Source: Pseudohoeflea suaedae
GTDB lineage: Bacteria > Pseudomonadota > Alphaproteobacteria > Rhizobiales > Rhizobiaceae
Reading direction: 5' to 3'
NCBI RefSeq assembly: GCF_004354915.1
Contig: NZ_SMSI01000001.1
Location: 620,001-684,000, forward strand
Length of the DNA stretch: 64,000 nt
The notes below the pieces were generated by a model that saw only the letters and a program-made list of their open reading frames with translations, was not told the origin of the DNA and did no database searches. Both the position numbers and the translations under genes were made by a program. Below are positions 11,234-29,543 of this stretch, piece after piece; the first letter of the stretch is position 1; each line of letters begins with the position of its first letter.

Positions 11234-11247
11234 AATAAACACCTCGT

Positions 11248-11338: not shown

Positions 11339-11677
11339 ATGTCCAGCCTAGCCGAGATGTTTCGCGAAGCTCACCGTGACACGCGGGTATCCCTGCGGCG
11401 GGAGTCGGCTTCCCCGATGACATATCGTGAGTGCTTCGCATGGTTTCTCAAGCTTGCATGGGCAAAGGCGAAGAAGGCGATGTTCGAAGTGAGAGCCAAG
11501 GCTGTGGCGCCGAAGCTGTTCGCTGAACTCACCGATTTGCAGCGCGGGTTTCGCTTCACGGAAATGTCCGACAACCGCTTTTACTCTTCCGGCCGCGAGA
11601 GTGCGATGCGTTCGCGTATCGCGGCGCTGGAGGCGGCTTTGGCCGTCGCCGTCTCTCAACCTCAACCCCACGCCTAA
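11339..11677 (+). CDS. Hypothetical island protein
   Basis: 112 aa from the ATG at 11339, with a CGGAGAT ribosome site. Helical and basic in the middle (KLAWAKAKKAMFEVRAKAVA), aromatic at the start (YRECFAWFLKLAW). No signal peptide. Not recognised. The small gene at 11692 has the same CGGAGAT site and probably belongs to the same transcript. Confidence 0.6.
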   Translation: MSSLAEMFREAHRDTRVSLRRESASPMTYRECFAWFLKLAWAKAKKAMFEVRAKAVAPKLFAELTDLQRGFRFTEMSDNRFYSSGRESAMRSRIAALEAALAVAVSQPQPHA

Positions 11678-11691
11678 ACGGAGATACCTTC

Positions 11692-11931
11692 ATGGCACCG
11701 CGATCGAAAATCGAAACCCATAGCGAAATCAGTTTGGCGCTCGCCGGGCTCGTCACTGTCTTGTGGGAACGGCTTGCCGATTCCGATGCGGACGAACCCA
11801 CGATGGCCTTGATTTCCGAAATTCAGCGCAAGGCTCGCGTAGCGCTCGATCAGGCGGTCGAGCTTGAAGAGCTCCAGTACTGCGATCTCAACGCGTCCAT
11901 GACGCCTGCGCGTCCCGTCGCGATCCAGTAG
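11692..11931 (+). CDS. Hypothetical small acidic protein
   Basis: 79 aa, helical and acidic, with an amphipathic stretch LALAGLVTVLWERLADSDAD. Start ATG 11692 after CGGAGATACCTTC. No family recognised. It lies 14 bp after the previous gene and is the last gene before a 370-bp gap. Confidence 0.55.
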   Translation: MAPRSKIETHSEISLALAGLVTVLWERLADSDADEPTMALISEIQRKARVALDQAVELEELQYCDLNASMTPARPVAIQ

Positions 11932-12302
11932 CAGCATGCCGGCGCGTTAGCGCCACCTACCCTGCCTCGTGGGCCGTACAGGCCGCACGCCGCGTCCACC
12001 ATGCTCGCCACCCTTCAAGACAGCTAAGTCGCTAATCGCTCTCCTACGAGGGCGGCACAGCACGTTTAGGGACCGTATCCCGCTTGTGCCGCTCGCGGGG
12101 CGCAGCCTCGCGGCATATCGTCCGGATTCTCTTTGCCCTAGGGGGAACCGCCGCCGACAATCATTAATGGGTCGCCATCCTGCAGAGCGGATCGCTTGAA
12201 ATTATGAGCTGCCAATACCTTGGCAACACATCGTATACGGGGTTAAATCTAAAAGTATGTAAAATTACGATTGCAAGAAATTTGCCCATGATTGGGGAGT
12301 AG
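11932..12302. other. Intergenic region upstream of the GHKL/methyltransferase cargo
   Basis: 371 bp with no gene. The left part is GC-rich, while the last 120 bp (from about 12180) are AT-rich, as expected for the promoter of the cargo genes. GGGGAG directly precedes the GHKL start. The change in composition may mark a cargo junction. I see no clear palindrome. Confidence 0.5.
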
Positions 12303-14210: not shown

Positions 14211-15492
14211 GGGGCCGGAAGATTTTGGCGTCGAGTTGGCGGAAGATTCCCTGCCTGCGACAGTAAGCACCGACGCGGTGCCAATCCGCCTAAACCACCT
14301 CTTTCCATGGCACCGTCCGAGGAAGCAGAAGGTCCGCCGAGACCAATGGGTCGGTTTGGCAAACACGCTTGTTCGGAAGCTGAAGCAGCAAAATGTCTTG
14401 GCGCCGAAACAGATGACGTTGCCCGACGGTAGTTCTTTCCAGCAAGCGCCAGAGATACGCTATCTAACCCTTCCAGGGCTCGACTATCTCGACGTTCGGC
14501 TCATCGGGGAAATGTGTGGCGATAATGATTGCAAGCTGGAAAGCGTGGGCTTTCTCAGCGACGCCGAAGACTCAGCCATGATGGCGCGCGCGCGGGTTAG
14601 GGAGACATCCCTGATACAGGCTGGGTATATCATGGATACCTCGTTGACGCTTCCTCGCAGCATTGAATCTATCTGCAATACTACAAGCGGAACACTAAAC
14701 GAGTTAAAGCGGCGTGCACCTTTTCACATCATTAACATTGACGCTTGTGGCTCCATCGCGCCCACGAGAGCGACCCATTCACGGCGCCTGATAGACGCAA
14801 TTTTCCGTTTGGTCGAGCTTCAGCTCGGCAAGGCTAATCATCGCTGGCTATTGTTCGTCACTGTTGATGCTCGCGACGACAATCTTGACGCCGATACGTT
14901 CGAGGCACTTTGCAACGCGGTTAGAGAGAATGCGAAGGCGAACGCAGATTTTGAGCTAGGCGCCATTGCATTTTTGAACGGCGAGGCGACTGAGCTTGAA
15001 GGCGCCATTGAGTCGTCAAAAACTGACGGACGCCCGTTTCTAAATATGTTCTCGCTTGGGTTTGCGAAATGGCTCTTACATTTGGCCGAAGTGAAACAAT
15101 GGTCGATCAAGCTCAAACGATCTCATTGCTATTCGACAAGGCCGACCGAAGATGCTTCACCTTCCATGGTCTCGCTTGCATTCGAGTTTCTTCCGCCGCC
15201 CGTGGGGCTTGTGGACCCACACAGTGTATCGAGGCAAAAACCGTCGCCGGGTGGCTCCACGAACAACCCGTCAATGCAGATTTTGGAAGGGGCAAGTCAG
15301 ATCGACGATTTGGATGCACTTCTCGAGGCGGATGCAGAACTCAGCGTTGAATTGAACGCTGCTACGCATTCGCTACTGATAGAGGCTGGCTATGAAATCG
15401 ACACACTATCGCCTCTAGTTGCAGAAGCAGTCGCGGGGCAGGCTACGCCGCCTCATCGTTTTCCAGACCTTCTTCAGGCGAAAGGTGCTTGA
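14197..15492 (+). CDS. Uncharacterised partner of the GHKL ATPase
   Basis: 431 aa, no domain I can name with confidence. After a polar start comes NHLFPWHRPRKQKVRRDQWV, then EIRYLTLPGLDYLDVRLIGE and later APFHIINIDACGSIAP. The alternating beta/helix pattern and the IINIDACGS strand-end recall motif IV (DPPxG-like) of Rossmann methyltransferases such as Trm1-like or three-Cys-motif partner proteins. No clear SAM-binding glycine loop is seen, so it may be an inactive or different Rossmann protein. The C-terminus is acidic. It starts 14 bp inside the GHKL gene and its last 50 bp overlap the convergent methyltransferase gene. I suspect homologues exist beside similar ATPase/methyltransferase pairs in Pseudomonas islands but cannot check. 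Confidence 0.75.
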   Translation: MASSEGPEDFGVELAEDSLPATVSTDAVPIRLNHLFPWHRPRKQKVRRDQWVGLANTLVRKLKQQNVLAPKQMTLPDGSSFQQAPEIRYLTLPGLDYLDVRLIGEMCGDNDCKLESVGFLSDAEDSAMMARARVRETSLIQAGYIMDTSLTLPRSIESICNTTSGTLNELKRRAPFHIINIDACGSIAPTRATHSRRLIDAIFRLVELQLGKANHRWLLFVTVDARDDNLDADTFEALCNAVRENAKANADFELGAIAFLNGEATELEGAIESSKTDGRPFLNMFSLGFAKWLLHLAEVKQWSIKLKRSHCYSTRPTEDASPSMVSLAFEFLPPPVGLVDPHSVSRQKPSPGGSTNNPSMQILEGASQIDDLDALLEADAELSVELNAATHSLLIEAGYEIDTLSPLVAEAVAGQATPPHRFPDLLQAKGA

Positions 15493-16462
15493 GTAGGCTT
15501 CTTGCAACGGCCTCAGCCATTGACGGCGGGACGGCCTCGCTCACTTGGTCGATTTGCGACGATAGCGACCCGAGAAGCTCGTATGAGTGCGGAAATCCCT
15601 GCAGTAGCATCGCTTCATACACGCTTAGTCGGCGGTGGCAGTCTGGATGAACATGGACTTCGCGATGGCCATAGGCGACGGTAATGCTCGGCTTTTCCCA
15701 TGCCAGTGTCTTAAAACTGCGGTTGCTGCTGTCTCCCGAGCGCAAACTACCATTCTTGAACCGAGCTGACCGAGGAGCCATGCACCAATGATTACGGTGG
15801 TAAGGAAAAGCTGACGGATTAGCGTTCTTTGAGTAATAGAACGGCTCTGGAAGCCCCCTAAGAACCGTAGAAATTGCGGGTCCCCTCTCCACTTCAGGTG
15901 ATTTTTCTGGTCCCGGCCACACCGTCTCGCCGAGCAGAGACTTATTTAAACCGACGATGAACAGACGCTCGCGCTTCTGAGGGGTGCCGTAGTCTGCCGC
16001 GTTTAAGAGCTGTTCGGAAACAAAAAAGCCCGCATCAGCTAGCGCATCCTTGAAGATGATCAGTCTGTGAGCATGCAGTTCACTGCGGAGACCTTTAACA
16101 TTCTCCATAACGAAGAAACTGACAGGGTTGCGCGCGTTGAGCTTTTTTAGAAGCTTCGCATAAACGAGTGGTAGCTGATGTCGTGGGTCGGTTTCCGTAA
16201 TGGCGCGATTGGCTTGGCTGAAGCTCTGACAGGGTGGTCCGCCAATAACGCCTTCTGGCGCAAATTCGGAGCCCCATAAGTCATCGAGCTTTTCGAGTGT
16301 GAGATCGTTCACGTCGAAACAATGACCGTGCTTGTCAGTTCGATTATGGTTGTAGGTGCGAACGCTATCTGCCTTCTTGTCGAAGGCTAAGCCGATCTCG
16401 AAATTGGCGTTCTCAAACCCCAGATCCATACCGCCGGCGCCGCAAAAAAGGCTCAGTAGCAA
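15443..16462 (-). CDS. DNA (cytosine-5)-methyltransferase
   Basis: 339 aa, full length for a small C5 methylase. Motif I SLFCGAGGMDLGFENA lies at the very N-terminus. Motif IV GGPPCQSFSQANR holds the catalytic Cys. Motif VI is VMENVKGL, motif VIII DYGTPQKRERLFIVG, and motif X lies near VPPSMAEAVARSLL. The region about 200-260 (PFYYSKNANPSAFPYHRNHW) would be the target-recognition domain; the target sequence is unknown. The start is a TTG at 16460-16462 with AGAGGAG seven bases upstream. No Vsr or classical restriction endonuclease is adjacent. It converges on, and overlaps by 50 bp, the 431-aa partner gene. Confidence 0.94.
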   Translation of the reverse strand: MLLSLFCGAGGMDLGFENANFEIGLAFDKKADSVRTYNHNRTDKHGHCFDVNDLTLEKLDDLWGSEFAPEGVIGGPPCQSFSQANRAITETDPRHQLPLVYAKLLKKLNARNPVSFFVMENVKGLRSELHAHRLIIFKDALADAGFFVSEQLLNAADYGTPQKRERLFIVGLNKSLLGETVWPGPEKSPEVERGPAISTVLRGLPEPFYYSKNANPSAFPYHRNHWCMAPRSARFKNGSLRSGDSSNRSFKTLAWEKPSITVAYGHREVHVHPDCHRRLSVYEAMLLQGFPHSYELLGSLSSQIDQVSEAVPPSMAEAVARSLLKHLSPEEGLENDEAA

Positions 16463-16627
16463 ATGTTCACTCCTCTGCGCCTGCGGCGGTGCTTCTCGCG
16501 AGTTCGAAGGTTAGCCCGGTTTTGACTTGGAATCCAGAACATTGGGGGGCACTACGCCGCCGTCCAGCGGAGATCTTGCATATCGCATTTCCCTGCATGA
16601 GTGGCGCATGGTGTACCGCTTAAAGTA

Positions 16628-16966
16628 TCAGTTCTCAGTGGTAAATGACTGAAGCGTCCACAGGCATCGCATTTCGCTGGCAGGTCGAAGGCATTGCAGT
16701 CCGAGGACTTCCAGATCCTCTCGATATACAATCTGTCCTGCTTTGAACTCACGGCAAAGATCGAAAATCACCGCATTAGTGATCGCCTTCGTCAATGCTT
16801 CCCGGTCCCCCTCGATAGAGTAGGTAAACAGCTTCTCCGCATAGTGTTTGTCAAAGCACCCTAGGCCGCTCTTGGTTATTTTAATGGGGTCGGAATGCGC
16901 TGTCGATGTAGTCATCCCTATCGCCATTATGGAGAAAGCTACAGCCGGGATGAAATTGCATCTCAT
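16628..16966 (-). CDS. Small secreted hypothetical protein
   Basis: 112 aa with a plausible signal peptide: MRC start, hydrophobic FIPAVAFSIMAIGM, likely cut near STAHS-DP. The mature part has four Cys and the motif GDREALTKAITNAVIFDLCR followed by FKAGQIVYRED. This resembles small periplasmic hypothetical proteins common in rhizobia. Its start overlaps the integrase stop by four bases, so it is probably translated from the integrase transcript. Function unknown. Confidence 0.55.
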   Translation of the reverse strand: MRCNFIPAVAFSIMAIGMTTSTAHSDPIKITKSGLGCFDKHYAEKLFTYSIEGDREALTKAITNAVIFDLCREFKAGQIVYREDLEVLGLQCLRPASEMRCLWTLQSFTTEN

Positions 16967-18270
16967 GAAGATCGCTCTACTGACGTTAGCGGGATCACAT
17001 TTTCAGACCGGCTTTCACCGCTGACGATCTCGGTCAAAAGCGCGCCCCATGCGTCTAGGGCGCGGCGTTTCTCGGCGAGGTAATCGTAAAGGTCATAGTG
17101 GCGGCCGGTGACGACGGCGGAGCCGCCCGTGTCGCCGCTGTGAGCCAGAACCTGGGAAACGACAAACCGCGGGATCCCGATCCGTTCGCTGGTCAGGTTC
17201 GTTGCCCCGGTGCGCCGAAAATCGTGAGGTGTCGCGCGAGGGATCTTCAGAGCGCTGGTCAGTCGGCTCATGGCGCGCGTGAACGCGTGCCGGTCGAAGT
17301 GTCCCCTTTCCTCGGCGCTGGATTTGAAGACATGCCCTTCTGCGCCCATCGCTTCCTTTGCTTTGAACAGCAAACCGGTCGCGATATCGCTCAGGGGGAC
17401 AACGTGCGGACGCTTTCCTTTCATGCGGGTGGCTGGCACGGTCCAAAGCCGTCTGTCCAGATCGATTTCGTCCCAATGCGCACCAATCACCTCGCCGCCG
17501 CGCTGTAGGGTTGCGAGAGCGAAGCGGAGAGCAATTCCCATTTCGATGGACAGTGCAAGCTTCTCCACCGCGCCCGGCTGTGCGCAGGCGCGCCAGATCG
17601 CGCGGATTTCGTCATCGTCCAGCACCCTCTCTCGAGGCGTCGGGGTGATCACGGCGATATCGTGGGCTGGGTTGGCGGGGATCAGGTCTTTGGAGAGAGC
17701 GTAGCTCATGAGCTGCCGAATGACGTTCCGAGCGTGCCGGCCGTTCGACGGGGCCTTCTTTGAGAGCCGCGAAACCAGCGCCTGGATGTCCGCCCGTTTG
17801 ATGTCGGCAAGGGGTAGGGCGCCCATGTCCTTCTTGATCAGCTTGTCGAAAACCCGGCGTTCCTCGCGGAGCGTCGAGTCCCGCTTGGCTCCGCGGGCGT
17901 TGGGGCGGTGAAGTCCTAGTGTGGCATCTGCGAAGTAGGATTCGGCGAGCCCCTCCAGCGTTCTCAGGCGCTTCGTCATTGCCTCAGCGCGCGCCAGTCG
18001 GGTATCTTGAACGAGATCCGCGCCTCCGGCGACCGCGCCTTTGATCTTACGAGCCTCTTCGCGCGCTCTGGAAAGCGAGATCGACGGAAAGGGGCCTATC
18101 GACTTGCGCCGGTGTTCGCCGGATGCGTTCACGTAGCGAACGGACCAAGAGCGTTTGCCCTTTTCCGTCACCCGAAAGATCAGGCCGGATTCCTCATCAT
18201 CACGCAACTCGAGCCTTTTGCCTTTCTCAGGCATCGATCGCTTGAGGAGGTCAGTCGTCAACTTGGCCAC
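16963..18270 (-). CDS. int: Tyrosine site-specific recombinase (integrase, P4-type)
   Basis: 435 aa. The N-terminal DUF4102-type arm-binding domain (LELRDDEESGLIFRVTEKGK, RRKSIGPFPSISLSRAREEA) is followed by a SAM-like core-binding domain and the catalytic domain. Visible catalytic residues: Arg in ATLQRGGEVIGAHW, Lys in RMKGKRPHVVPLS, His-x-x-Arg in TPHDFRRTGATNL, His in VSQVLAHSGDTGG, and Tyr in GRHYDLYDYLAEKRRAL. It reads inward from the right border; its 5' end is 157 bp from attR. It should integrate the island at the tRNA-Arg 3' end. Full length and intact, so the island may still be mobile. Confidence 0.95.
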   Translation of the reverse strand: MAKLTTDLLKRSMPEKGKRLELRDDEESGLIFRVTEKGKRSWSVRYVNASGEHRRKSIGPFPSISLSRAREEARKIKGAVAGGADLVQDTRLARAEAMTKRLRTLEGLAESYFADATLGLHRPNARGAKRDSTLREERRVFDKLIKKDMGALPLADIKRADIQALVSRLSKKAPSNGRHARNVIRQLMSYALSKDLIPANPAHDIAVITPTPRERVLDDDEIRAIWRACAQPGAVEKLALSIEMGIALRFALATLQRGGEVIGAHWDEIDLDRRLWTVPATRMKGKRPHVVPLSDIATGLLFKAKEAMGAEGHVFKSSAEERGHFDRHAFTRAMSRLTSALKIPRATPHDFRRTGATNLTSERIGIPRFVVSQVLAHSGDTGGSAVVTGRHYDLYDYLAEKRRALDAWGALLTEIVSGESRSENVIPLTSVERSS

Positions 18271-18279
18271 TCAAAACTC

Positions 18280-18300
18280 CTGGGGCAATTCTGGGGCAAT
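18280..18300 (+). promoter_or_regulatory. Putative integrase arm-type sites, right end
   Basis: CTGGGGCAA at 18280 and again at 18291, 11 bp apart, same orientation and spacing as CGGGGGCAA at 6341 and 6352. They lie just upstream of the integrase start, so they could also serve in autoregulation of int. Confidence 0.5.
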
Positions 18301-18426
18301 AGATATCCGCTCTCTTTTGCATTAGTTTGCACTCTACTGCACCCTACGCGAGATCGCAATTGTCGAATAAACAAGGAGTTAGAAGTTGAACGCCATCTAC
18401 CAGCATTCGCCTGCACAGAATGACCT

Positions 18427-18480
18427 CCAGACTACGAATCTGGGGGTCAGGAGTTCGAATCTCTTCGGGTGCGCCATTTC
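18427..18480 (+). repeat. Right attachment site (attR), 54 bp
   Basis: Perfect copy of 6234-6287: anticodon arm, variable arm, T-arm and 3' acceptor strand of tRNA-Arg. The 5' half of the tRNA is absent here, so this is not a second tRNA gene. Confidence 0.95.
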
Positions 18481-18810: not shown

Positions 18811-19194
18811 ATGACAGACCATCTGATCCTGTACGTCGATGACGAAGACGATATCCGTGAAATCGCGGAAATGGCTCTGGCCTTGGAGCCGGCGTTCAGG
18901 GTTGCCACTGCCGCGTCCGGAGCCGAGGCCCTGGAAAGGGCGAGGGGCGAACGGCCTGACCTTATCCTGCTCGATGTCATGATGCCGGGAATGGACGGGC
19001 CCGCCACGCTTTCCAGCCTGCGGGACGACGAGACCACGTCCGGCGTCCCCGTGGTCTTCATTACGGCGCGCACCCAGGCGCATGAGGTGGAGCGGTTTCT
19101 CGCCCTCGGTGCCGTCGGCGTGATCGCCAAGCCCTTTGACCCGATGGCTTTGGCGGGAGAGGCCATGCGCTATCTGACGGCAGGACGAGATTGA
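18811..19194 (+). CDS. Single-domain response regulator (receiver)
   Basis: 127 aa receiver with no output domain. Acidic pocket DDEDD near the N-terminus, phospho-acceptor Asp in LILLDVMMPGMDGP, Thr/Ser in VVFITART, and Lys in GVIAKPFDP. Likely a phosphate shuttle or protein-interaction switch. It is the first gene of the polysaccharide locus and overlaps the next start (ATTGA). Opposite-strand HPt and hybrid kinase genes at 25.4-29.5 kb are plausible phosphodonors. Confidence 0.92.
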   Translation: MTDHLILYVDDEDDIREIAEMALALEPAFRVATAASGAEALERARGERPDLILLDVMMPGMDGPATLSSLRDDETTSGVPVVFITARTQAHEVERFLALGAVGVIAKPFDPMALAGEAMRYLTAGRD

Positions 19195-20825
19195 GCAGAC
19201 GGGCGCCAGGGCCGAGCCGGTTGCAGTTCGGCCTTGCGCTTCTCGTTGCTTTGCTTTCATCACGGTCGGAGGCGCAGGATGCAAGGGAAGAGCGTCCGGC
19301 AAGTGGGGCTGCAATGAACGAAGTCTGGTCCGCACGCATCCCGAAGTTTGAGAAACTGCCCACGCGGATCATCGTGGAGGGCGTCGATCAGGCGGGCATG
19401 TTCCGTCCGTTGCGCGCGGCAATCCCCGAAGCGGGTGAAATGTCACCTGCGCCGCTTCCCCTGCCCATCGGCACAGATCTGCTCGCGGATGCCGCTACGC
19501 GTGTGTTCGGGCTCGAGGAGCGGGCGACCGTCACCACGGGATCGACGGGCTCTCTTGTCATGGAGTGCAAGGCCGGTTCCGCTCCGGCCGGACTTCTGGT
19601 GAGTGCAGGCAACGCCTATGTGCCGAGAGAAGTGCCCATGAGGCTTCTCGTCCGATCGGAGGGGGAGGGCGGATTTGCGGTCGCCGTCGTCGACCGCGCG
19701 ACCGGGGAAAACGTATGGGCGTCGGCCGAGATCACGGATGCCGAGACGGTCCTGGCCTTGCCGAGCCGGTCATGGGCGCAAAAGGACCTGCCCGACATCC
19801 GCATCCTGTGCCCCTCGTCCTCGGGCAGGATCGAAATACGGTCGGCGCGTCTCGATGTGCCGGAGGGTGGCAGCGTTCCGGCCGGAGCGGGAGCCTGGAT
19901 GTGGAACGCGGCCGATGCGCTGGAGGCGGATGGGCAGCTTGAAGATCGCCTCGAAGCCGGCGGCATCGACCAGGTCTATCTCCAGCTTCCTGTCGCCGGG
20001 AATTCGGTCGTTCATCAAACGGATCTCCGTGCATTGATCGAGCGCTTGCGCAAGCGAAACATCGATACGATTGCAGTTGAAGGTGATCCGGAAATGGTCT
20101 CTCGGGACGGACGCCTGCACGCGCTTTCGCGAGCCTCGGCGATCTCCGGGTTCATCGGCGGTTCGTCCGCAAGGCAAAGTTTGGCCGGCGTCCAGTATGA
20201 TATCGAGCCCTACCTCGGCGGTTCTCATGTGAATCCGGAAGAGATGTGGGATGAGTGGAAGGCGACGATCAGGGCGCTGGCCGATGAGATCGGCAGTCCG
20301 GTCTCGGTCGTCGTGCCCTTCTGGATGCAGGCCAGCGATGCCGGCATTCGTGCCCTCGACGATCTCGACGGCCAAATCGCGGAAATCGTCGTGATGGCTT
20401 ACCGCACGGACGAAATCTCCCTTTGGCAGATTTGCGAGCCATGGCTTGCATATGGGGCCGACCGGAACCGGGCTGTCAGGATCGCGCTCGAGAACGGCAT
20501 CCTGGAAAAGGAGTGGCACAGAACATACAGGCGGGCCGAAAAGGGCCCTCTTGTCCTGGAAATTGATGTGGATGGCACGCCGATGGTCAGCCTTGGCAAC
20601 GTCTCGTTAACCATGAATGGAGAACATTGGTGGTATGACCTGTCCCATGAGGTTGTCATCGATCCCCGCCGGATCAGCTTCATGGGAGATGCGGCAACGA
20701 TGTCGGCGCTCGCAGCTCGAGTGGCCCCTGAGTTCGCTGCCTGGAAATCTTTCACGGGATTTGCTTTCCACGGACTCGATATGAAAGCGGAAGCCGCAGC
20801 TTCCAGTAGAGAGACAACAAAATAG
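19191..20825 (+). CDS. Secreted TIM-barrel-like protein, possible polysaccharide-modifying hydrolase
   Basis: 544 aa. A signal peptide (LQFGLALLVALLSSRSEAQ) precedes a beta-rich N-terminal half. The C-terminal half (about 235-500) reads like a glycoside-hydrolase barrel: IDQVYLQLPV, NIDTIAVEGDPEM, LAGVQYDIEPYLGGS (acidic pair at a strand end), SVVVPFWMQAS, AEIVVMAYRTDE. No family is assigned. Its place between two receivers and ahead of an outer-membrane barrel and a GT2 synthase is like the PgaB position in poly-N-acetylglucosamine loci (inference). It starts with TTG at 19191, overlapping the regulator stop, after AGGACGAGA. Confidence 0.7.
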   Translation: MSRRAPGPSRLQFGLALLVALLSSRSEAQDAREERPASGAAMNEVWSARIPKFEKLPTRIIVEGVDQAGMFRPLRAAIPEAGEMSPAPLPLPIGTDLLADAATRVFGLEERATVTTGSTGSLVMECKAGSAPAGLLVSAGNAYVPREVPMRLLVRSEGEGGFAVAVVDRATGENVWASAEITDAETVLALPSRSWAQKDLPDIRILCPSSSGRIEIRSARLDVPEGGSVPAGAGAWMWNAADALEADGQLEDRLEAGGIDQVYLQLPVAGNSVVHQTDLRALIERLRKRNIDTIAVEGDPEMVSRDGRLHALSRASAISGFIGGSSARQSLAGVQYDIEPYLGGSHVNPEEMWDEWKATIRALADEIGSPVSVVVPFWMQASDAGIRALDDLDGQIAEIVVMAYRTDEISLWQICEPWLAYGADRNRAVRIALENGILEKEWHRTYRRAEKGPLVLEIDVDGTPMVSLGNVSLTMNGEHWWYDLSHEVVIDPRRISFMGDAATMSALAARVAPEFAAWKSFTGFAFHGLDMKAEAAASSRETTK

Positions 20826-20842
20826 TGAGGGAGTCTGAGGCT

Positions 20843-21211
20843 ATGCATACGATTCTCATCTGCGACGACGACACGCTCATCCTCGAACTCATGGAGTTCC
20901 GCCTTCAGGCCAAGGGGTATACGGTCATCAAGGCCGAGGATGGTGAGCAAGCCTTGAAGCAAACTGCCGAAGCCCGGCCTTCGCTGGTCGTACTCGATGC
21001 GATGATGCCGAAGCTCGACGGCTTTCAGGTCCTGTCGCGGCTGAAGGCAAATGAGGACCTCAGGCATATCCCGGTCATCATGCTGACGGCACGCAAGGGC
21101 GAGCAGGAAATCGTCTCCGCGCTGGAGCGCGGCGCCGAAGACTACCTCGTGAAACCGTTCATTCCGGACGAGCTGATGACCCGGCTCTCCAAGATCCTCT
21201 CGAAGAAGTAG
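20843..21211 (+). CDS. Single-domain response regulator (PleD/CheY-type receiver)
   Basis: 122 aa. Receiver signature: ILICDDDTLILELMEF, phosphorylation Asp in LVVLDAMMPKLDGF, Thr in VIMLTARKGE, Lys in DYLVKPFIPDEL. No output domain. ATG at 20843 with GAGG before it is preferred to the GTG at 20825 that overlaps the previous stop. Second lone receiver of the locus; its stop is 6 bp before the barrel gene, so it is co-transcribed. Confidence 0.92.
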   Translation: MHTILICDDDTLILELMEFRLQAKGYTVIKAEDGEQALKQTAEARPSLVVLDAMMPKLDGFQVLSRLKANEDLRHIPVIMLTARKGEQEIVSALERGAEDYLVKPFIPDELMTRLSKILSKK

Positions 21212-21217
21212 AAGCCG

Positions 21218-22948
21218 ATGGGCCGCGCCACCCGCATCATCGTTGCCGGATCTCTCCTCGCCATGGCGATGTATTCGCCCGCCGGCGCCCAGACCGCCGA
21301 CGAACTCTATGCGCAGGCGGTGGAGGCCCGCAAGGCGGGGGCGACCGAGGACGCGACGTCACTGCTGCGACGCGCCCTCGAACTTGAACCCGACAATGCG
21401 GATGCGCTCGTCCAGCTCGGTTTCGCGCTCCTCGCCGCAGATGATCGGGAAGGTGCCAGATCGGCCTTTGATAAAGTCCTTTCCATCGCGCCTGGCTATA
21501 CCGATGCCAAGTTCGGGCTTGCGCAGCTCGCCTTCCGGGACGGCGATCTCGTGAAGGCGGACGCGCTGAACCGCGAGGTCCTGAGCGCTCAGCCGGACTA
21601 TGCGGATGCCGCGGAACTCGCGGAGCGGATCAGCAGGGCGCGTGCCGGCGTGATCGACAGCAAGCCCGTTCGGTCTCCGGTCGTGAAAACGGCCGCGCCC
21701 CTGCGTGCCGAACCGCGGCCGACGGCTCTCGAACGTGCGACGGCACTGAGGCTCGAGGGGCGTTTCGCACTCGCGGAGGCTGAGTATCGTCGCGCACTGG
21801 CCGCGGATCCCGGCAATACCGACGCGCTGGTGGGACTGGGTCTGGTCCTTGCCGTCAACGGCGATCCGGATGAAGCTCAGCGCCTTTTCCTGCGCACTCT
21901 CGACATCGCTCCCAGCTATATCGACGCGCGGGCCGGACTGCTGCGTCTGGCGCTGGCGCGCGATGACGTGCCGGGCGCAAGGGGAATCGTCGACGACCTG
22001 AGCGTTGCCGAGCGGGAAAACGCGGATATCGCGGTTCTGGCCGGGCGCCTCCTCATGCGCGAACACAGCTATCGGCAGGCTCGGGACATGTTCCAGAGCG
22101 TTCTGGAGCGGGATCCGTCCAATGCGGATGCGCTCATCGGACTGGGCGACGCTCAACAAGCGCTCGGCCAATACAGTTCCTCACGCGCGACATTTGAAAA
22201 GGCCCGGGCGCTCGACCCCGGGTCGCAGGCGGTTCTGGATCGGATGACGCTTGCCGACCAGCCGAACTGGCGACTGGATCTCGGCACCGAATACAGTACG
22301 CTGTCGGGCGACCGGCCGTCATGGACAGACACCATTGCAGCGGCCTCCTATCGCCTGCGCCCCGATACGACATTGACGGTGTCGGGACGCCTCGCGACGC
22401 GCGGCGACGTCGAGGATGTTCAGCTCGGCCTCAGGGTCGACCACCGGTTCAGCACGATCGTGTCGGCCCATGGCGGGATCTCCGTCACGCCCGACGGCGA
22501 CTTTCTTCCGGATGCGACGATCGCCGGCGGGCTGCGGATCGACATTCCCACCGATACATCGGTCTCGCCCTTTCTTGACGTGGATCTCAGACATGACCGC
22601 TATTCCGCGGACTCGATCACCACGCTTGCGCCCGGCGTCGGTGTGCAGCTCGGCACCCGGGTGACGCTGTACGGACGGTGGATCCATTCGGCGAGCCAGA
22701 GCGGGGCGACGGCAGACGGCTATCTGGTCCGCGCCGACGTCAATCCGTTCGACCGGTTGGGGTTTTTCGTCGGCTACAGCGACGCGCCGGAGATCGACAG
22801 CGCCGCGCTGATCGACACGCAAACCTGGTTTGTCGGCGCCTCGCTCGACTTGGCGGAGGGACTGGCCTTCAGGATCAACTACTCCAACGAGAGCAGGACC
22901 GCATTCGACAGGAAGACTGTCGGTGCAGGACTGTCCTACCGGTTTTGA
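21218..22948 (+). CDS. TPR protein with C-terminal outer-membrane beta-barrel (YaiO-like)
   Basis: 576 aa. Signal peptide with cleavage after YSPAGAQ. Tetratricopeptide repeats fill about residues 25-345 (for example DATSLLRRALELEPDNADAL, AEAEYRRALAADPGNTDALV, ARDMFQSVLERDPSNADALI), with an Ala/Pro linker near 155. The last 220 residues are alternating beta strands ending in the outer-membrane signature GAGLSYRF with terminal Phe. This is the PgaA/BcsC/AlgK-AlgE arrangement: periplasmic TPR scaffold plus export pore. It very likely exports the polymer made by the GT2 synthase downstream. Confidence 0.85.
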   Translation: MGRATRIIVAGSLLAMAMYSPAGAQTADELYAQAVEARKAGATEDATSLLRRALELEPDNADALVQLGFALLAADDREGARSAFDKVLSIAPGYTDAKFGLAQLAFRDGDLVKADALNREVLSAQPDYADAAELAERISRARAGVIDSKPVRSPVVKTAAPLRAEPRPTALERATALRLEGRFALAEAEYRRALAADPGNTDALVGLGLVLAVNGDPDEAQRLFLRTLDIAPSYIDARAGLLRLALARDDVPGARGIVDDLSVAERENADIAVLAGRLLMREHSYRQARDMFQSVLERDPSNADALIGLGDAQQALGQYSSSRATFEKARALDPGSQAVLDRMTLADQPNWRLDLGTEYSTLSGDRPSWTDTIAAASYRLRPDTTLTVSGRLATRGDVEDVQLGLRVDHRFSTIVSAHGGISVTPDGDFLPDATIAGGLRIDIPTDTSVSPFLDVDLRHDRYSADSITTLAPGVGVQLGTRVTLYGRWIHSASQSGATADGYLVRADVNPFDRLGFFVGYSDAPEIDSAALIDTQTWFVGASLDLAEGLAFRINYSNESRTAFDRKTVGAGLSYRF

Positions 22949-22950
22949 CG

Positions 22951-23985
22951 ATGTTGAGATTGGTCTGGTCGTTATCAATCGCGCTCGCGCTCACGTCCAT
23001 CTTCGTCATGCTCGTACTTATCGTGCGGCGGGTCATCGTCACGAGATTGGAGAAGAACCGGAACGCCGCCAAGGCCAGACTGAACGCGGCATTGATCCGT
23101 TTTACCGCCGATGAGGACAAGGAGAAGGTTCTGGCGTCGCTGTCGGGCATTCCGAAGACCGTGATAGCCGATGCCGGTTTCGAATTTCTCGCGCTGTTGC
23201 GCGGAAACGAGCGGCGCGAGATCGAGGAAGTCTTCGCTGAGATCGGGATCCAGCGGGTCATTCGCAAGCAGCTGAGGCAGGGCAACCGGTCCCAACGCAT
23301 TTTTGCGGCAGAACGTCTGACGGCTTTTCCCGCAGCCGAGACCAACCGCGCCCTGCTGGCCGCTCTGCGCGACCGTTCGCGCCAGGTGCGTATTGCCGCG
23401 GCGATTGCCTTGGGCGAAATGCAGGCCTTGCCGCCTCTCGCCGACGTCATGAACATGATCGGCTATCGTGGCCAGCGTTCGGCACGGATCGTCGACCTGT
23501 TTCAGACGCTCGGGGCCGAACGCTCCGAAGAACTGCGAAGCGTCGCGCTGGATATCCGTGCCAATGCCCTGATGCGCTCTGCGGCGATTGCCGTGCTTGG
23601 CCAGACGGGCGACTACAGTCACCTGGCCTTCATTCGCGAGATGACCCGCGACGAATCGGCCGATATCGCCGCAGCGGCCGTCAACGCGGTCGGACGGCTG
23701 GCGCATCCCTCGTCGGCCCCGACCGTCATCGAGGCGCTCAGGCATGCGGACTGGCGCGTCAGATCGGAAGCCGCCCAGGCGGTTCGTCTGGTCGGCGCCC
23801 GGGATGCGATTCCGGAACTCACAACTCTCCTGGAAGACGCCGAATGGCCGGTGAGATACTGGGCGGCGCATGCGCTTCACGCGTTCGGCCAGGAGGGTAT
23901 CGACATGCTCCGTTCGATCGCCGAGGGCGACCCGTCGCGCAGTCAGCGCACGGCTTCGATGGTCATGGCGGAGGACGCGGCATGA
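22951..23985 (+). CDS. Membrane-anchored HEAT-repeat protein
   Basis: 344 aa. One N-terminal transmembrane helix (LVWSLSIALALTSIFVMLVL) followed by a basic stop and helical repeats. HEAT/PBS-lyase-type units are evident from about residue 125: RQVRIAAAIALGEMQ, MRSAAIAVLGQTGDYSHLAF, DIAAAAVNAVGRLAHPSSAP, WRVRSEAAQAVRLVGARDAI, WPVRYWAAHALHAFGQEGID. Probably a cytoplasmic scaffold. It lies 2 bp after the barrel gene and overlaps the synthase by ATGA. A role as adaptor between receivers and synthase is attractive but unproven. Confidence 0.8.
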   Translation: MLRLVWSLSIALALTSIFVMLVLIVRRVIVTRLEKNRNAAKARLNAALIRFTADEDKEKVLASLSGIPKTVIADAGFEFLALLRGNERREIEEVFAEIGIQRVIRKQLRQGNRSQRIFAAERLTAFPAAETNRALLAALRDRSRQVRIAAAIALGEMQALPPLADVMNMIGYRGQRSARIVDLFQTLGAERSEELRSVALDIRANALMRSAAIAVLGQTGDYSHLAFIREMTRDESADIAAAAVNAVGRLAHPSSAPTVIEALRHADWRVRSEAAQAVRLVGARDAIPELTTLLEDAEWPVRYWAAHALHAFGQEGIDMLRSIAEGDPSRSQRTASMVMAEDAA

Positions 23986-25415
23986 CGCTCGATGCAGACA
24001 TCACCGCGTTCCTGTTCGATGTTGCCTTCTGGGTTGCGGTCATCGTGATGACGTCGGGGCTGCTCCAGACCCTTGTCTATCTCGCGCAGCTTCTCGTCGC
24101 CACATACGCCCTTATGAGACGCCCTCCGGTAGCGCGCTCCAGTCTCTTGTGGCATCGCTTTGCCGATGTCGCTCCACCGATCGCAATCATAGTCCCCGCC
24201 TATAACGAGCAGCTCAACGTCACCGAGACCGTTCATTCCCTTTTGTCGATGGAATACCCGAGCTATGAGGTCATCATCGTCAATGACGGCTCGAGGGACA
24301 GGACCCTGGAGGTGCTGATCGAGGCTTTCCAGCTCAGGCAGGTCAGCCGTTCCTATGAGGAATCGCTCGAGCACCAGCCCATCCGCGGCATATACGGCAA
24401 TCCGACGAATGATCGTCTGACCGTGATCGACAAGGAGAACGGGGGGAAGGCGGATGCGCAGAATGCCGGTATCAATGTTTCGCGTGCACCGCTTTTCTGC
24501 GTCATCGACGGTGATTCGATACTGGAGAACGATGCACTTCTCCGTGCCTCGCAGCCCTTCATCGAGGATCCCGAGAGAACGATCGCGGTGGGCGGCACGA
24601 TCCGGATAGCCAACAACTCGACCTTCGAACGGGGAAGCGTGACCGAGGTCCGGCTGCCCACCAGGCTTTTGCCCTTGTTCCAGGTGATCGAATATCTGCG
24701 TGCCTTCCTGATGGCCCGGCTTGCCTGGAGCCGAATAAACGCCCTGATGCTGATTTCCGGCGCTTTCGGCGTTTTCCGGCGTGGTGACGTCATCGCGGTC
24801 GGCGGCTTCACCCAGGGGTCCATGGGAGAGGATTTGGATCTCGTGCTCAAACTCCACCGGCACATGAGGCAGATCCGCAAAGACTATCGTATCGAGTTCA
24901 TCCCCGAGCCGGTCTGCTGGACCGAAGCGCCGGAAACTCTTGCCGTTCTGGGGCGGCAGCGCTCGCGGTGGCAGCGCGGGGCGCTCGAATGCTTCTTCCG
25001 GTATCGCGGCATGTTCATGAACCCGCGCTACGGCCGTATCGGGCTGTTGGGAATGGTCCACGTCTTCATCGTGGATGTGGTCGGTCCTGTAGCCGAGGTT
25101 CTGGGCTACATCCTCATTCCCCTGTTCTGGTATCTGGGCATCCTCAATCTCGATTTCCTGCTTGCCTACACCGCGCTTGTGTTCGTCTACGGAATTTTCG
25201 TCAGCGTCGGCTCGCTGGTGCTCGAGGAGATGGAACTCCGGCGTTTCCCCAATGCGAGGGATCTCGCGATCTTGCTGCTCGCCGCGATTGTCGAGAATTT
25301 TGGCTACCGCCAGCTCAACAATTTCTGGCGTATCCGCGGATGCTGGCAGTTTCTGCGACAGGACAACTCCTGGGGCGAGATGCCACGGACCGGCTTCAAT
25401 TCGTCAAGCAACTAG
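23982..25415 (+). CDS. Processive family-2 glycosyltransferase (PgaC/BcsA-like polysaccharide synthase)
   Basis: 477 aa. N-terminal hydrophobic segments (about 8-45) precede the GT-A domain: IAIIVPAYNEQLNVTETVHS, VIIVNDGSRDRT (first Asp), CVIDGDSILENDAL (DxD-like), SMGEDLDLVLKL (catalytic-base ED), and LGRQRSRWQRGALE, the Q-x-x-RW motif of processive beta-synthases. C-terminal membrane helices (MVHVFIVDVVGPVAEVLGYI, YTALVFVYGIFVSVGSLVL) form the translocation channel. No PilZ domain. Product unknown: hexosamine polymer, cellulose-like glucan or another. ATGA overlap with the HEAT gene fixes the start. Confidence 0.9.
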   Translation: MTLDADITAFLFDVAFWVAVIVMTSGLLQTLVYLAQLLVATYALMRRPPVARSSLLWHRFADVAPPIAIIVPAYNEQLNVTETVHSLLSMEYPSYEVIIVNDGSRDRTLEVLIEAFQLRQVSRSYEESLEHQPIRGIYGNPTNDRLTVIDKENGGKADAQNAGINVSRAPLFCVIDGDSILENDALLRASQPFIEDPERTIAVGGTIRIANNSTFERGSVTEVRLPTRLLPLFQVIEYLRAFLMARLAWSRINALMLISGAFGVFRRGDVIAVGGFTQGSMGEDLDLVLKLHRHMRQIRKDYRIEFIPEPVCWTEAPETLAVLGRQRSRWQRGALECFFRYRGMFMNPRYGRIGLLGMVHVFIVDVVGPVAEVLGYILIPLFWYLGILNLDFLLAYTALVFVYGIFVSVGSLVLEEMELRRFPNARDLAILLLAAIVENFGYRQLNNFWRIRGCWQFLRQDNSWGEMPRTGFNSSSN

Positions 25416-25705
25416 CGGACGATGCTTTCCAGCGTCTTCACGAGCTCATCGAGCGCTGCGGCCAGTTGCGCATGTGAGGGCTGAGTTTGGTCCACGAGGA
25501 GGTCCTCCAGCAGCCGAGCCTTCTCGCTGGCCTCCGGATAGCCGAACAATGCACCGCTGCCCACGATCTTGTGTGTCCTTTCGGTGAGCTCGGGACGTCT
25601 CGGTGAGGCAGCCAGGTCGCCAGGCTGATCACGTATTTCCTTCAGGACCGCCAGATCCGTGGCGCATCGAGCTCGAAAGCGCTGGGCGAAGACATCCAGA
25701 TCCAT
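25412..25705 (-). CDS. Histidine phosphotransfer (HPt) protein
   Basis: 97 aa four-helix HPt. The phospho-acceptor His is in ERTHKIVGSGALFGYPEAS, matching the HKxxGxxxxxG pattern, with helices on both sides. Encoded one base after the hybrid kinase stop, so the two are co-expressed. The kinase REC should pass phosphate to this His, and this protein to the lone receivers at 18811 and 20843. Convergent with the synthase gene, overlapping by four bases. Confidence 0.88.
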   Translation of the reverse strand: MDLDVFAQRFRARCATDLAVLKEIRDQPGDLAASPRRPELTERTHKIVGSGALFGYPEASEKARLLEDLLVDQTQPSHAQLAAALDELVKTLESIVR

Positions 25706-25706: not shown

Positions 25707-28700
25707 TCAACTGCGCCCGCGCGCTGCTTCGCGTTGCACTTGCGCTCTCTCCTGCAGAAGGCCGACGACGGTCTCCACCACTCTGGCTTCTGTCACCCGC
25801 GATTTCGGAAGATATGCATCGACGCGGATATCGGGGTCGTAATCTTCCTGGGCGGTCAGGACGATGATCGGCAGCCCCATCTCGGAGACCTGACCGAGCA
25901 GTTCGAGGCCGTTTCCGTTATAGAGGCCGATATCGATGATCACCATGTCGATAGTCCCGCCGGCGAGAAGCGAGCGCGCTTCCGGAATGGTGGCGGAGCA
26001 GATGACGCGCGCACGGTCGCGGAGATAGGCGGCCACCACCTCGGAAAAATCACGATCATCCTCGACATGCAGGATGGCAGGCAGGTCGCCCTCCGTCGCC
26101 GCCGCGGCAAGACTGCTTTCCTCGGTATCGACGGCCGGCAGCGTGATCCAGAACGTGGACCCTTCGCCAGGGGTCGCGTCGAACCCGATCTCGCCGTCCA
26201 TCTGCTCCACGATCTGTTTGGAGATATGGAGGCCAAGGCCCGTGCCGCCCTTGGCCCGGGTCGCCGAACCGTCGGCCTGCGAAAAGCGGCTGAATATCTT
26301 GTCGCGGAATTCGGGGGGAATGCCCGGCCCCTGGTCGGCTATCATCACCTTCACGCCACCGTCTATGGCTTGCGCGGACACGCGCACCGTCGAACCCGCG
26401 GGGGAGAATTTTGCCGCGTTTGACAACAGGTTCGCAAAGACCTGATGCAAGCGGGCGAGGTCGACATTGACGATGGTCTTGGGCAGCGGCATCGCCAGTT
26501 CCTGGATGACCTCGTGCGCGTCCGCATATCCCTGGTTGGCCTCGAATGCCTGTTGAACGATGTCCGCGATGCTTTCCTTGCGCTTGTCGAAGCGCATCTT
26601 GCCGTTGGAGATCTTCTCGAGATCCAGGATGTCGTTGATCAGGAGCACGAGGCGCTCGCAGTTGCTGTGCGCGATCGACAGAAGCCGCGTGACATTTGCC
26701 GGAAGGTCTTCCTTCATCGCGCCCAGAACAAGGCCCAGCGACCCCCGGATGGAGGTCAGCGGGGTTCTCAGCTCGTGGCTGACGGTTGCCACGAACTCTG
26801 TCTTGAGTTGCTCGGCTTCCTTGATCTCCGTGAGATCCTGGAACTGCGTGATGAAATATCTGGAACCGGTTTCGAGATCGCTGGCCATCGATACGCTCAC
26901 CAGCACCCAGACAAGCCTGCCGTTCTTGTGCAGCATGCGCATCTCGCGCTGGTAGGAATTGATTGCCCCATCCGCGAGTTGCCGGGGACGTGCGTCGTCG
27001 GGATCGATGTCTTCCACATGGATGAAGTCACGCGCATCCTTTCCGATCAGCTCATCCGGGCGATAGCCGAGCAGATGACAAAGGGCCTGGTTGACCTCCA
27101 TCCATCGCCGGTCCAGGGAAGCCATGGCCATGCCGACTGGTGCATTGTGAATGGCAGTGCGGAACCGTTCCTCGCTTCGCTGCAGCGCGTCCATGGTCTT
27201 TCGCAGTTCGGTGATATTGGTCTGGGTGCCGATCATGCGCAGCGCCGTGCCGTCGTCGCTGCGTTCCGTGACTTCGGTGTCCGACCTCAGCCAGATCCAG
27301 TCGCCGTCGACACGCCGGATGCGGTATTCGGACACGGAACGCTGCGAGCTTCCTTCAATACATGCCCGATCGGCTGCTTCGACCGTCGGCCTGTCATCCG
27401 GATGAATCCGGCTTTGCCATTCCGACTGGGCATCGATCTCCTCGTCAGCGGAGAAGCCAAGCATCAGTTTCCAGGTTTTGGAGACGACGGAGATGCCGGT
27501 CGTGAGATCAATATCGAAAACGCCGATCTCCGAGCCTTCCAGCGCAGCGTTCCATCGGCGTTCATTTTCCGTGAGTGCCTGCTTGGCCACTTCCTCGGAC
27601 GTCACATCGCGGATCAGTGCCGTATAGCGGCTTGCTCCGTCCATATCCTTCCAGGGGTTGATCTGGAGCTCGATATAGAGATCCACACCCTCGCCGCTTC
27701 GCGTTCTCCGCAGCGCATTCGCATGGCCGCCGAGGTCGAACTTGAGATCGCCGCCGATGACCTTCGAGAGGGGCGTGCCGACCAGCCGTTTGTCGCTGCG
27801 AGCGAAAATATGCTCCGCGGCACGATTGGCGGAGAGGATGTTGCGCTCTTCGTCGAGCAGCATGATGCCAACCATCGCCGTATCGATCAGCGAGCGGGTG
27901 CGCTGCTCGCTTGCGCTCAGCTCGCGCGTCTTGGTCTGGACGATCGAGCGGACGGTCTCCTCGCGTCGCGTGAATGCAAGAAGCAGCGCGGCGAACATGA
28001 CCGACAGAGCCAGTCCGGCAACGAGCGTGATCAACGGCAGCTTGCTTGTGACCGCGCTTTCGAATTTCGGGGTGCTTTCCCAGACGATGGTCCAGGTCTG
28101 TTCCATGACCGGCACTTCAATGTTCAGCTTGAAGTGTGCAGCCGGGCGAGAGGCGCCTGAAGCATATATCAGGTCGTCTTCAGCCGTCGACGAGCCGTCA
28201 TAGATCCGGACGTTGAAGAGTTGTCCCTGACCGAGTGTCAGGCCATTCATGAAGCGCGGAGCGATGAAAGGTGCATAGATCCAGCCTCTGAATGCGGCCT
28301 GGCGGGCCGACGCCGTCTTCAGGAAATCGGGGTCTCCATAATAAATCGGCCGGAGAAGGAGAAACCCGGCGCTCTCGGTTTCATCCTGCACCAACAGAAT
28401 ACGCCTGGTAATTGTTGGAAGGCCGGTATCGCGCGCATGAACTGCAGCTTCATGGCGGTTTTTCTCGAACCCGATATTGAGGCCGACGGCCTTCCGGTTA
28501 GGAGCGACTGGTTCGATATATTTGATGATGAAATTGTCGAAGCGCTCTCCGTCCGGATGGATTTCGAGGTCGGCGACCCCGTCAGCCATCACCAGCCTGG
28601 GGTAAATGTCCAGCTTGGTTTCATCCACGGGTTCGATGAAGCCGATTCCGCTGATGCCCGGGAGCGAGTCCCGGATGGTGAGCGTCTCCACATAGGATCG

Positions 28701-29543
28701 CCATTCAGGCGCTGTGATCCTGTCCGAGGCGTCGAAGAAACCGGCTCCGCCATCGAGCGCCCTCTTATAGGCGTTCATGCGCGAGTCCAGGGCCTGAAGG
28801 TTGTTGTTGGCCAGCGCGGAAAAATTCTCGGAGCTGTGTTCGAAGGTCACGCGGCTTGCGACATTCCAGGCCATGACCGTCCCGAGCAGGGGGATCGCCA
28901 ACATGGCGAGTGTCGCAATGGTAAACCCGGTCACCGCGCGGTCTTCCCATTCCACCGTCCAGGGACGCCAGGGATTGAGAAGGCCGATCGGCAGGAAGAG
29001 GATGACGCCGAGAGTGTCTCCGGCCCACCAGTTGAGCCAGTTCTTCAGATAGGATGGCCCGTCCACCGCGCCGGCCAGCCAGAGCGTGGTAACGCCCACG
29101 GTCGCCGCCACGGTGCAGACGACCGGACCGCAGATGACGGCTATTCGGATGAGATCCGAATAGCCGCCAATACGGATCGGAATCCCGTAAAGACGCTCGA
29201 TGAGCTTGAAGGCGAGAACGGCCTGTAGCGAGGAGCCTGCGGCAATGCCGGCGGCGGCGGCCATCGCCACGAGGTCAATCGCGCCGTCCCTGTAAATGCC
29301 TCCGACCAGCGAGTTCAGGATGAACGAGCCGATGAGGATGCCGGGCCAGTGGCGCACGCCGTGGAGCAGCAGTATGGCAAGGGCAAGACCGGAGGCCGGC
29401 CAGAGGACGGTCGCGTAACCGGGCGGCACGGCCATCTGCAGGCCGACGGCTCCCGCAGTCAGGTAGACTGTCGCCAGGATCGCCACGACCAGAAGTCCGG
29501 ACCGTGCGACGGGCGCCTTTTCGCGCGCGGGCTTCCCAAGCAT
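25707..29543 (-). CDS. MASE1-CHASE-PAS hybrid sensor histidine kinase/response regulator
   Basis: 1278 aa. MASE1-type membrane region (about 15-230, GLLVVAILATVYLTAGAVGL, LWPASGLALAILLLHG), CHASE sensor (about 235-470, RALDGGAGFFDASD), a transmembrane helix near 485-505, three PAS/PAC units (about 545-920: TAMVGIMLLDEERNI, GSEIGVFDIDLTTG, NAPVGMAMASLDRRW), HisKA (VATVSHELRTPLTSIRGSLG), HATPase (NLLSNAAKFSP, ADQGPGIPPE, GGTGLGLHISKQIVEQMDGE) and a C-terminal receiver (LHVEDDRDFS, VIIDIGLYNGNG with acceptor Asp, AYLPKSR). A full phosphorelay input. Downstream of it and co-directional is HPt. Confidence 0.92.
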   Translation of the reverse strand: MLGKPAREKAPVARSGLLVVAILATVYLTAGAVGLQMAVPPGYATVLWPASGLALAILLLHGVRHWPGILIGSFILNSLVGGIYRDGAIDLVAMAAAAGIAAGSSLQAVLAFKLIERLYGIPIRIGGYSDLIRIAVICGPVVCTVAATVGVTTLWLAGAVDGPSYLKNWLNWWAGDTLGVILFLPIGLLNPWRPWTVEWEDRAVTGFTIATLAMLAIPLLGTVMAWNVASRVTFEHSSENFSALANNNLQALDSRMNAYKRALDGGAGFFDASDRITAPEWRSYVETLTIRDSLPGISGIGFIEPVDETKLDIYPRLVMADGVADLEIHPDGERFDNFIIKYIEPVAPNRKAVGLNIGFEKNRHEAAVHARDTGLPTITRRILLVQDETESAGFLLLRPIYYGDPDFLKTASARQAAFRGWIYAPFIAPRFMNGLTLGQGQLFNVRIYDGSSTAEDDLIYASGASRPAAHFKLNIEVPVMEQTWTIVWESTPKFESAVTSKLPLITLVAGLALSVMFAALLLAFTRREETVRSIVQTKTRELSASEQRTRSLIDTAMVGIMLLDEERNILSANRAAEHIFARSDKRLVGTPLSKVIGGDLKFDLGGHANALRRTRSGEGVDLYIELQINPWKDMDGASRYTALIRDVTSEEVAKQALTENERRWNAALEGSEIGVFDIDLTTGISVVSKTWKLMLGFSADEEIDAQSEWQSRIHPDDRPTVEAADRACIEGSSQRSVSEYRIRRVDGDWIWLRSDTEVTERSDDGTALRMIGTQTNITELRKTMDALQRSEERFRTAIHNAPVGMAMASLDRRWMEVNQALCHLLGYRPDELIGKDARDFIHVEDIDPDDARPRQLADGAINSYQREMRMLHKNGRLVWVLVSVSMASDLETGSRYFITQFQDLTEIKEAEQLKTEFVATVSHELRTPLTSIRGSLGLVLGAMKEDLPANVTRLLSIAHSNCERLVLLINDILDLEKISNGKMRFDKRKESIADIVQQAFEANQGYADAHEVIQELAMPLPKTIVNVDLARLHQVFANLLSNAAKFSPAGSTVRVSAQAIDGGVKVMIADQGPGIPPEFRDKIFSRFSQADGSATRAKGGTGLGLHISKQIVEQMDGEIGFDATPGEGSTFWITLPAVDTEESSLAAAATEGDLPAILHVEDDRDFSEVVAAYLRDRARVICSATIPEARSLLAGGTIDMVIIDIGLYNGNGLELLGQVSEMGLPIIVLTAQEDYDPDIRVDAYLPKSRVTEARVVETVVGLLQERAQVQREAARGRS

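Follow-up and report, generated by a model that had tools for sequence, protein, structure and literature searches.

A 64,000-nucleotide stretch of the Pseudohoeflea suaedae genome (contig NZ_SMSI01000001.1, positions 620,001 to 684,000; hereafter the window, in whose coordinates all positions are given) contains a putative polysaccharide synthase operon, which was the focus of this study. Six tightly packed genes were found on the + strand between 18811 and 25415, encoding a stand-alone receiver (REC1), a TIM-barrel hydrolase, a second stand-alone receiver (REC2), a TPR/YaiO-type outer-membrane protein, a HEAT-repeat protein, and a family 2 glycosyltransferase (GT2), in that order. REC1 (18811..19194; 127 residues) matched PF00072 at 97 bits, and REC2 (20843..21211; 122 residues from an ATG, with a GTG at 20825 as another possible start) at 107 bits. 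The secreted hydrolase candidate (19191..20825; 544 residues; TTG start) was modeled as a CBM-like beta-sandwich followed by a PgaB/Cwp19-like TIM barrel (pLDDT of 87.2). The outer-membrane protein (21218..22948; 576 residues) combined TPR repeats with a YaiO-type barrel, and was followed by the membrane-anchored HEAT protein (22951..23985; PF13646, 94 bits) and the processive-type GT2 polysaccharide synthase (23982..25415; 477 residues; PF13641, 92 bits). Junctions on this strand were short: 4-nt overlaps of the hydrolase gene with REC1 and of HEAT with GT2, and gaps of 6 nt (REC2 to the outer-membrane protein) and 2 nt (the latter to HEAT), while the hydrolase and REC2 genes overlapped by 1 nt with the GTG start at 20825 or were 17 nt apart with the ATG start at 20843. 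The - strand carried, facing this set, an Hpt phosphotransfer protein (25412..25705; 97 residues; PF01627, 34.9 bits with a cut-off of 24.6) and then a hybrid histidine kinase (25707..29543; 1278 residues) with the Pfam domains MASE1-CHASE-PAS-HisKA-HATPase-REC. An earlier sequence-only reading of this DNA had recognized a TPR-barrel exporter, a secreted barrel-like hydrolase, a membrane HEAT protein, and a Q-x-x-RW GT2; all four were present with tight junctions, and the two receivers, Hpt, and hybrid kinase had been left unnamed.

All eight product kinds occurred together in another genome of the same taxonomic family (L006; L and G numbers denote loci and genomes of the comparison set), in the order kinase-REC1-TIM-REC2-OMP-HEAT-GT2 (OMP, outer-membrane protein) with a convergent Hpt gene; the GT2 and REC2 proteins were 72% and 73% identical to those of the window, respectively, and REC1, in the same place, was 64% identical. 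Since the same arrangement was kept in L006, the cluster was not a chance grouping. The convergent Hpt gene was also found in L010, L011, and a Mesorhizobium plasmid, and rhizobial-type loci, L006 among them, had a related kinase next to the genes. In the more distant L007, REC2-OMP-HEAT-GT2 was adjoined by a MASE1 kinase to which an Hpt-like domain was fused, and a CE4 deacetylase gene was placed between the GT2 and hydrolase genes.

A search of 299 Pseudomonadota genomes with a profile built from 19 GT2s gave 18 matches with an E value of 1e-60 or better. These separated by score into a group of 13 exceeding 300 bits (12 at 619-709 and one at 313) and a group of five at 208-219 bits. At the family level, 4 of 151 genomes matched, including that of the window. 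The window, L006, and L007 aside, the surroundings of 13 high-scoring loci were opened, of which the phylum draw supplied 11 and the draw from the same taxonomic family two, together with those of all five low-scoring loci. The 13 were drawn without regard to the hydrolase. A HEAT gene was located directly upstream of GT2 in 13/13 high-scoring loci versus 0/5 low-scoring loci (Fisher p of 1.2e-4). The high-scoring loci also contained a same-strand REC gene near GT2 (11 of 13) and a clear YaiO/TPR-type barrel (11 of 13; L133 and L134 gave weak matches only), and the hydrolase was present in three, one of which, L136, appears to be from the same genome as L012. Among the plasmid matches, 12 of the top 14 were opened, and HEAT was upstream of GT2 in all 12 regions, which spanned Mesorhizobium, Legionella, Deinococcus, Planococcus, Bacteroides, Emticicia, and three haloarchaea. 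The HEAT genes of Emticicia and Bacteroides were weak profile matches (24 and 23 bits, respectively), the latter also being annotated as HEAT, and the Mesorhizobium plasmid had the full set, including the kinase and Hpt, without the hydrolase. Overall, the pair was found in Paenibacillus, Deinococcus, Bacteroidota, Verrucomicrobia, Legionella, and haloarchaea. The core of the system is the HEAT-GT2 pair. Although the HEAT protein has no counterpart in pga or bcs, as previously stated, it is the regular companion of this GT2 family rather than an unusual addition. A Gram-positive form was seen in Paenibacillus and its kin (L059-L088; 26 of 27 Firmicute-type loci), where the HEAT-GT2 pair was accompanied by a membrane-anchored glycosidase-like protein, a receiver whose phosphoacceptor site is Glu, the hydrolase, and a nucleotide-sugar dehydrogenase.

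The GT2 of the window contained the DxD, ED, and Q-x-x-RW motifs. The nearest curated model was PgaC/IcaA (TIGR03937), at 148.4 bits versus a cut-off of 422.3, followed by NodC (58 bits) and CelA (TIGR03030; 54 bits versus a cut-off of 699.1); no PilZ domain was matched in it by Pfam. In each of the 20 HEAT-partnered GT2s compared, in which the catalytic residues were all present, three segments were nearly constant in length (53-57, 24, and 25 residues) and longer than their counterparts in Escherichia coli PgaC and plasmid-borne Staphylococcus aureus IcaA (29-30, 10, and 19 residues). The HEAT-partnered GT2s form a separate family, defined here by a profile A5 score of more than 300 bits, presence of the three insertions, and a HEAT gene directly upstream; the window protein showed 709 bits (it is itself a profile member), segments of 53/24/25 residues, and the 4-nt overlap with HEAT. 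The insertions may be the docking place of HEAT or REC. In a 53-row GT2 tree, in which BcsA was not kept, PgaC, IcaA, and YaiP were on one side of a 90/90 branch, with YaiP, Legionella, and others forming long branches. In the same tree, Bartonella-type (alpha) and Gilliamella (gamma) GT2s from the bee gut grouped together (95/96; L020, L048, L024, and L034), both on long branches, a possible sign of transfer from one gut symbiont to another.

Since the HEAT protein has a single N-terminal membrane helix and its gene adjoins GT2, the repeats might be periplasmic and guide the chain in a BcsB-like manner. Topology was counted among HEAT homologues above 80 bits (those of haloarchaea, Bacteroides, Legionella, and Bartonella were among those below this limit and left out): 68 had a clear membrane helix, and the one without was a broken gene. 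The content of Lys and Arg was higher after the helix than before it in 67 of the 68, many of which are close relatives, lower in none, and tied in one. This charge distribution, and the retention of the gene in single-membrane bacteria and archaea, make a periplasmic guide very improbable, and the HEAT domain is predicted to be cytosolic.

The 544-residue protein, used as a single sequence, had no match in Pfam, NCBIfam, or PDB. Its DxE and MxY motifs suggested GH18 membership, which was rejected because PF00704 did not match the window protein (one of 48 members matched, at E 0.024) and the position of E434 on beta7 better suits the PgaB layout. In structural comparisons, CBM29 chains were among the Foldseek matches of the beta-sandwich, and VIA-align ranked Cwp19 first for the TIM barrel (Z of 18.2). 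The C-terminal domain of PgaB (GH153 type) aligned with a Z of 16.6 (233 residues; root-mean-square deviation of 3.5; 9% identity), with other glycosidase barrels tied within 1. The barrel-like nature previously assigned to this protein was borne out as a TIM type with a Cwp19/PgaB-like fold, at identities of only 9-15%. D337 and E339 follow beta4 (333-336) and E434 ends beta7 (428-434), and these residues were conserved in 48/48, 48/48, and 47/47 sequences, respectively. According to a published comparison, PgaB is the nearest fold to Cwp19, and the PgaB acids Asp466 and Glu607 are at equivalent positions on beta4 and beta7 (PMC5765458). The window protein resembles both in its TIM barrel, and the placement of its acids is like that described for PgaB; it differs in the DxE after beta4, the CBM-like N-terminal domain, and a beta insert between beta7 and beta8. 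It is probably an active hydrolase of the exported chain. The single convincing PDB match of the 48-member profile, 10yv_A ('Putative GH97 from Cellulomonas fimi', 275 residues; E 6e-12), was not used because its label was distrusted, and an apparent GT2-hydrolase fusion in L008 was ruled out as two genes in different frames.

One scan of the genome contigs gave 80 hydrolase loci that were kept (L046 being on the contig of L008); GT2 was within the stretch in 68 of them, with HEAT directly upstream in 66. Six of the 12 loci without GT2 were on pieces of 5.4-18.2 kb that are possibly truncated. A search of the genomes behind all of these 12 loci except L031 and L050 found a GT2 of 622-674 bits elsewhere in eight of the 10, versus a background of 12 in 298 other genomes (p of 3e-10, ignoring kinship). 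The two genomes without it were an Omnitrophota and a Gilliamella metagenome-assembled genome, and all nine GT2 copies placed elsewhere adjoined HEAT. The hydrolase tracks the HEAT-partnered GT2 and belongs to its system. In L018, L027, L030, L037, and L039, the deacetylase and barrel-hydrolase genes formed a separate pair, and each genome had its HEAT-GT2 pair at a distant place.

The outer-membrane protein scored 84.5 bits with the YaiO model TIGR04390 over residues 351-576 (cut-off of 32). Its structural model (pLDDT of 90.4) contained 14 barrel strands in residues 351-575, and the VIA-align neighbors were FadL-type and OmpG barrels (Z of about 19-23). The match to PgaA (TIGR03939; 56.6 bits versus a cut-off of 366.65) was through the TPR part. 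The PgaA and BcsC barrels have 16 strands (PMC9384988). In the Massilia/Pseudoduganella loci, an outer-membrane barrel was not found near the genes, also with a second query.

In line with the sequence-only reading, the operon encodes a synthase-dependent envelope polysaccharide or exopolysaccharide machine that by curated models is neither pga nor bcs: the cut-offs of PgaC, PgaA, and CelA were all missed. The bcsABZC system is similar in its inner-membrane GT2, secreted hydrolase, and TPR-barrel exporter, but the CelA score was 54 of 699 bits, the GT2 had no PilZ match, and the operon encoded no BcsB-like product. The E. coli yaiP-yaiX-yaiO locus likewise has a YaiO-type barrel near a GT2; however, YaiP was 28% identical over 244 residues and scored 53.5 bits with the family profile, and HEAT, REC, and TPR genes are absent from the annotated locus. 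Likeness to pga/ica comprised the nearest GT2 model, the TPR and outer-membrane barrel, a secreted TIM-barrel hydrolase, and CE4 in some relatives, whereas the receivers, HEAT instead of PgaD, and separate genes for hydrolase and deacetylase set the present system apart. The statement that PgaB deacetylase is lacking held for the window operon, among the products of which Pfam detected no CE4 de-N-acetylase, but CE4 adjoined the hydrolase in 11 of 80 related loci; given also the PgaB-like fold of the hydrolase, a split PgaB-like pair of hydrolase and deacetylase is the better comparison.

Donors derived from N-acetylhexosamine, perhaps as uronic acids in some branches, are favored because PgaC is the nearest model and because CE4, GlmS/GlmU-like, and dehydrogenase genes are neighbors in relatives. 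In Halosolutus, REC-HEAT-GT2 was followed by a GlmU-like nucleotidyltransferase (best model at 259 bits, below the 292 cut-off) and GlmS (705 bits; cut-off of 418). The sequence-only reading had taken the polymer to be probably different and perhaps undescribed, but with donors of this kind a product as ordinary as poly-N-acetylglucosamine is also conceivable. The same CE4 and GlmS neighbors, the PgaC/IcaA match, and the resemblance of the hydrolase to the PgaB C-terminal domain would also suit a divergent system whose protein set differs but whose product is ordinary, partly deacetylated poly-N-acetylglucosamine. We regard this as unlikely: the PgaC score was one third of the cut-off, the GT2 has three insertions, PgaD is absent, the barrel is predicted to have 14 rather than 16 strands, and a homologue of the relatives' deacetylase was not found in the window genome by a search without a positive control. 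Since no such homologue was found, the chain may stay acetylated here. Of 27 Firmicute-type loci, 26 had a nucleotide-sugar dehydrogenase, as did Legionella (TIGR03026 above its cut-off in the two scanned), the latter with a TviC-like epimerase as well, raising the alternative of a uronic-acid or neutral-sugar polymer not built from N-acetylhexosamine. This, too, we consider improbable, since the nearest named relatives of these dehydrogenases act on UDP-ManNAc and UDP-GlcNAc (all below cut-off), no dehydrogenase was found near the window operon, and Halosolutus has GlmS. The Legionella adelaidensis plasmid locus (L095, 1739-8126), which combines HEAT-GT2 and a YaiO gene with a TviB-like dehydrogenase and the TviC-like epimerase, is a possible poly-hexosaminuronate locus.

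A same-strand REC gene was located within 5.2 kb of GT2 in 54 of 68 related loci. Of 73 aligned receivers, the phosphoacceptor was Asp in 45 and Glu in 28, the latter being those of the 26 Firmicute-type loci, L026, and L128. The Methylobacterium loci had no receiver, and an open reading frame with a GGDEF motif followed directly after GT2 in four of five (L015, L019, L021, and L022). This distribution would suit the receiver as a docking subunit. Whereas gene content, order, domain types, conservation, and linkage were shown by computation, direct gating of the synthase through HEAT is our inference. GT2 would polymerize and extrude the chain, most likely from a UDP-N-acetylhexosamine donor, with the membrane-anchored HEAT protein, its repeats in the cytosol, as its standing contact. 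Phosphate would be transferred from the hybrid kinase via Hpt to the stand-alone receivers, and REC2, docked on HEAT or on HEAT and the GT2 insertions, would act as a direct switch of the synthase. The TPR domain and YaiO-type barrel would conduct the chain outward, and trimming would be the role of the secreted barrel enzyme. As a whole, an uncharacterized exopolysaccharide synthase family gated by a phosphorelay, REC2, and HEAT is, in our estimation, moderately probable.

Several points weigh against this model. No receiver was near GT2 in 14 of the 68 loci, phosphorylation is not general because the Paenibacillus-type receivers have a Glu phosphoacceptor, the receivers could act elsewhere, and, given the Paenibacillus-type and Legionella dehydrogenases, the monomer may be a uronic acid and may vary from branch to branch. 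In the congener G003 (L148, 1819-6262), genes for the kinase (69% identical) and REC1 (71%) were convergent, and the synthase, Hpt, REC2, and hydrolase genes were not between them; therefore, the synthase block was either lost in G003 or gained in the window genome, and the kinase and REC1 may have another job. The kinase, Hpt, and receivers might accordingly act on transcription or another target, with no direct gate, as would also fit receivers without an output domain and the Methylobacterium, Bartonella-type, and Gilliamella loci, which lack the receivers. This alternative is somewhat unlikely because REC-HEAT-GT2 adjacency extends to haloarchaea, and the Glu-site receiver kept in Paenibacillus-type loci suits a structural subunit.

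The operon is located in a variable region at a tRNA-Arg gene. The hydrolase was absent from all three congeners searched, and GT2 from two congeners in the family-level search; in the congener G001, the two flanks were approximately 19 kb apart versus 36 kb in the window, with other content between. A 12.2-kb island at tRNA-Arg (6229-18480) between 59-nt direct repeats (97% identical) is possibly a defense island. Its + strand encoded a GHKL-type ATPase (12303-14210) that weakly matched a type II restriction enzyme, and its - strand a DNA cytosine methyltransferase (15443-16462) and an integrase (16963-18270). Carriage of the operon on this island was rejected since 330 nt separate the end of its second repeat (18480) from REC1, leaving the operon just outside. 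Beside the kinase gene, a 2974-residue protein (29738-38662, -) with Gly-rich repeats of the SIGG(G/D/N)GG type and a barrel-like C-terminus may be read as a giant autotransporter.

As far as the literature was searched, this is an undescribed, conserved family of synthase-dependent polysaccharide machines: no description of a HEAT-GT2 polysaccharide locus was found in the open-access papers searched, most subscription papers being outside this coverage; the available part of PMC7112194 did not mention HEAT or YaiO, and PMC12419801 and PMC10434189 dealt with other subjects. Beyond the window, HEAT-GT2 may be an old bacterial and archaeal synthase core set directly by a docked receiver, with HEAT as a general adaptor that lets a phosphorelay, not cyclic di-GMP (c-di-GMP), gate synthesis post-translationally, a proposal that we put forward tentatively, at slightly less than even confidence. 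The accompanying picture, in which the receiver is phosphorylated in most proteobacteria, replaced by a fixed Glu pseudo-receiver in Paenibacillus-type loci, and supplanted by diguanylate-cyclase input in Methylobacterium, is conceivable to a similar, somewhat doubtful degree when taken jointly. The well-studied synthase-dependent biofilm polymers (cellulose, poly-N-acetylglucosamine, alginate, and Pel) are switched by c-di-GMP. If the proposal is true, a cytosolic HEAT subunit with receivers would represent a different control principle for polymer synthesis, and would unite polymer loci whose parts are at present labeled separately ('HEAT repeat protein', 'glycosyltransferase family 2', and 'YaiO family'), with members in bee-gut symbionts (Gilliamella and Bartonella), Methylobacterium, rhizobial relatives, Paenibacillus, and haloarchaea.

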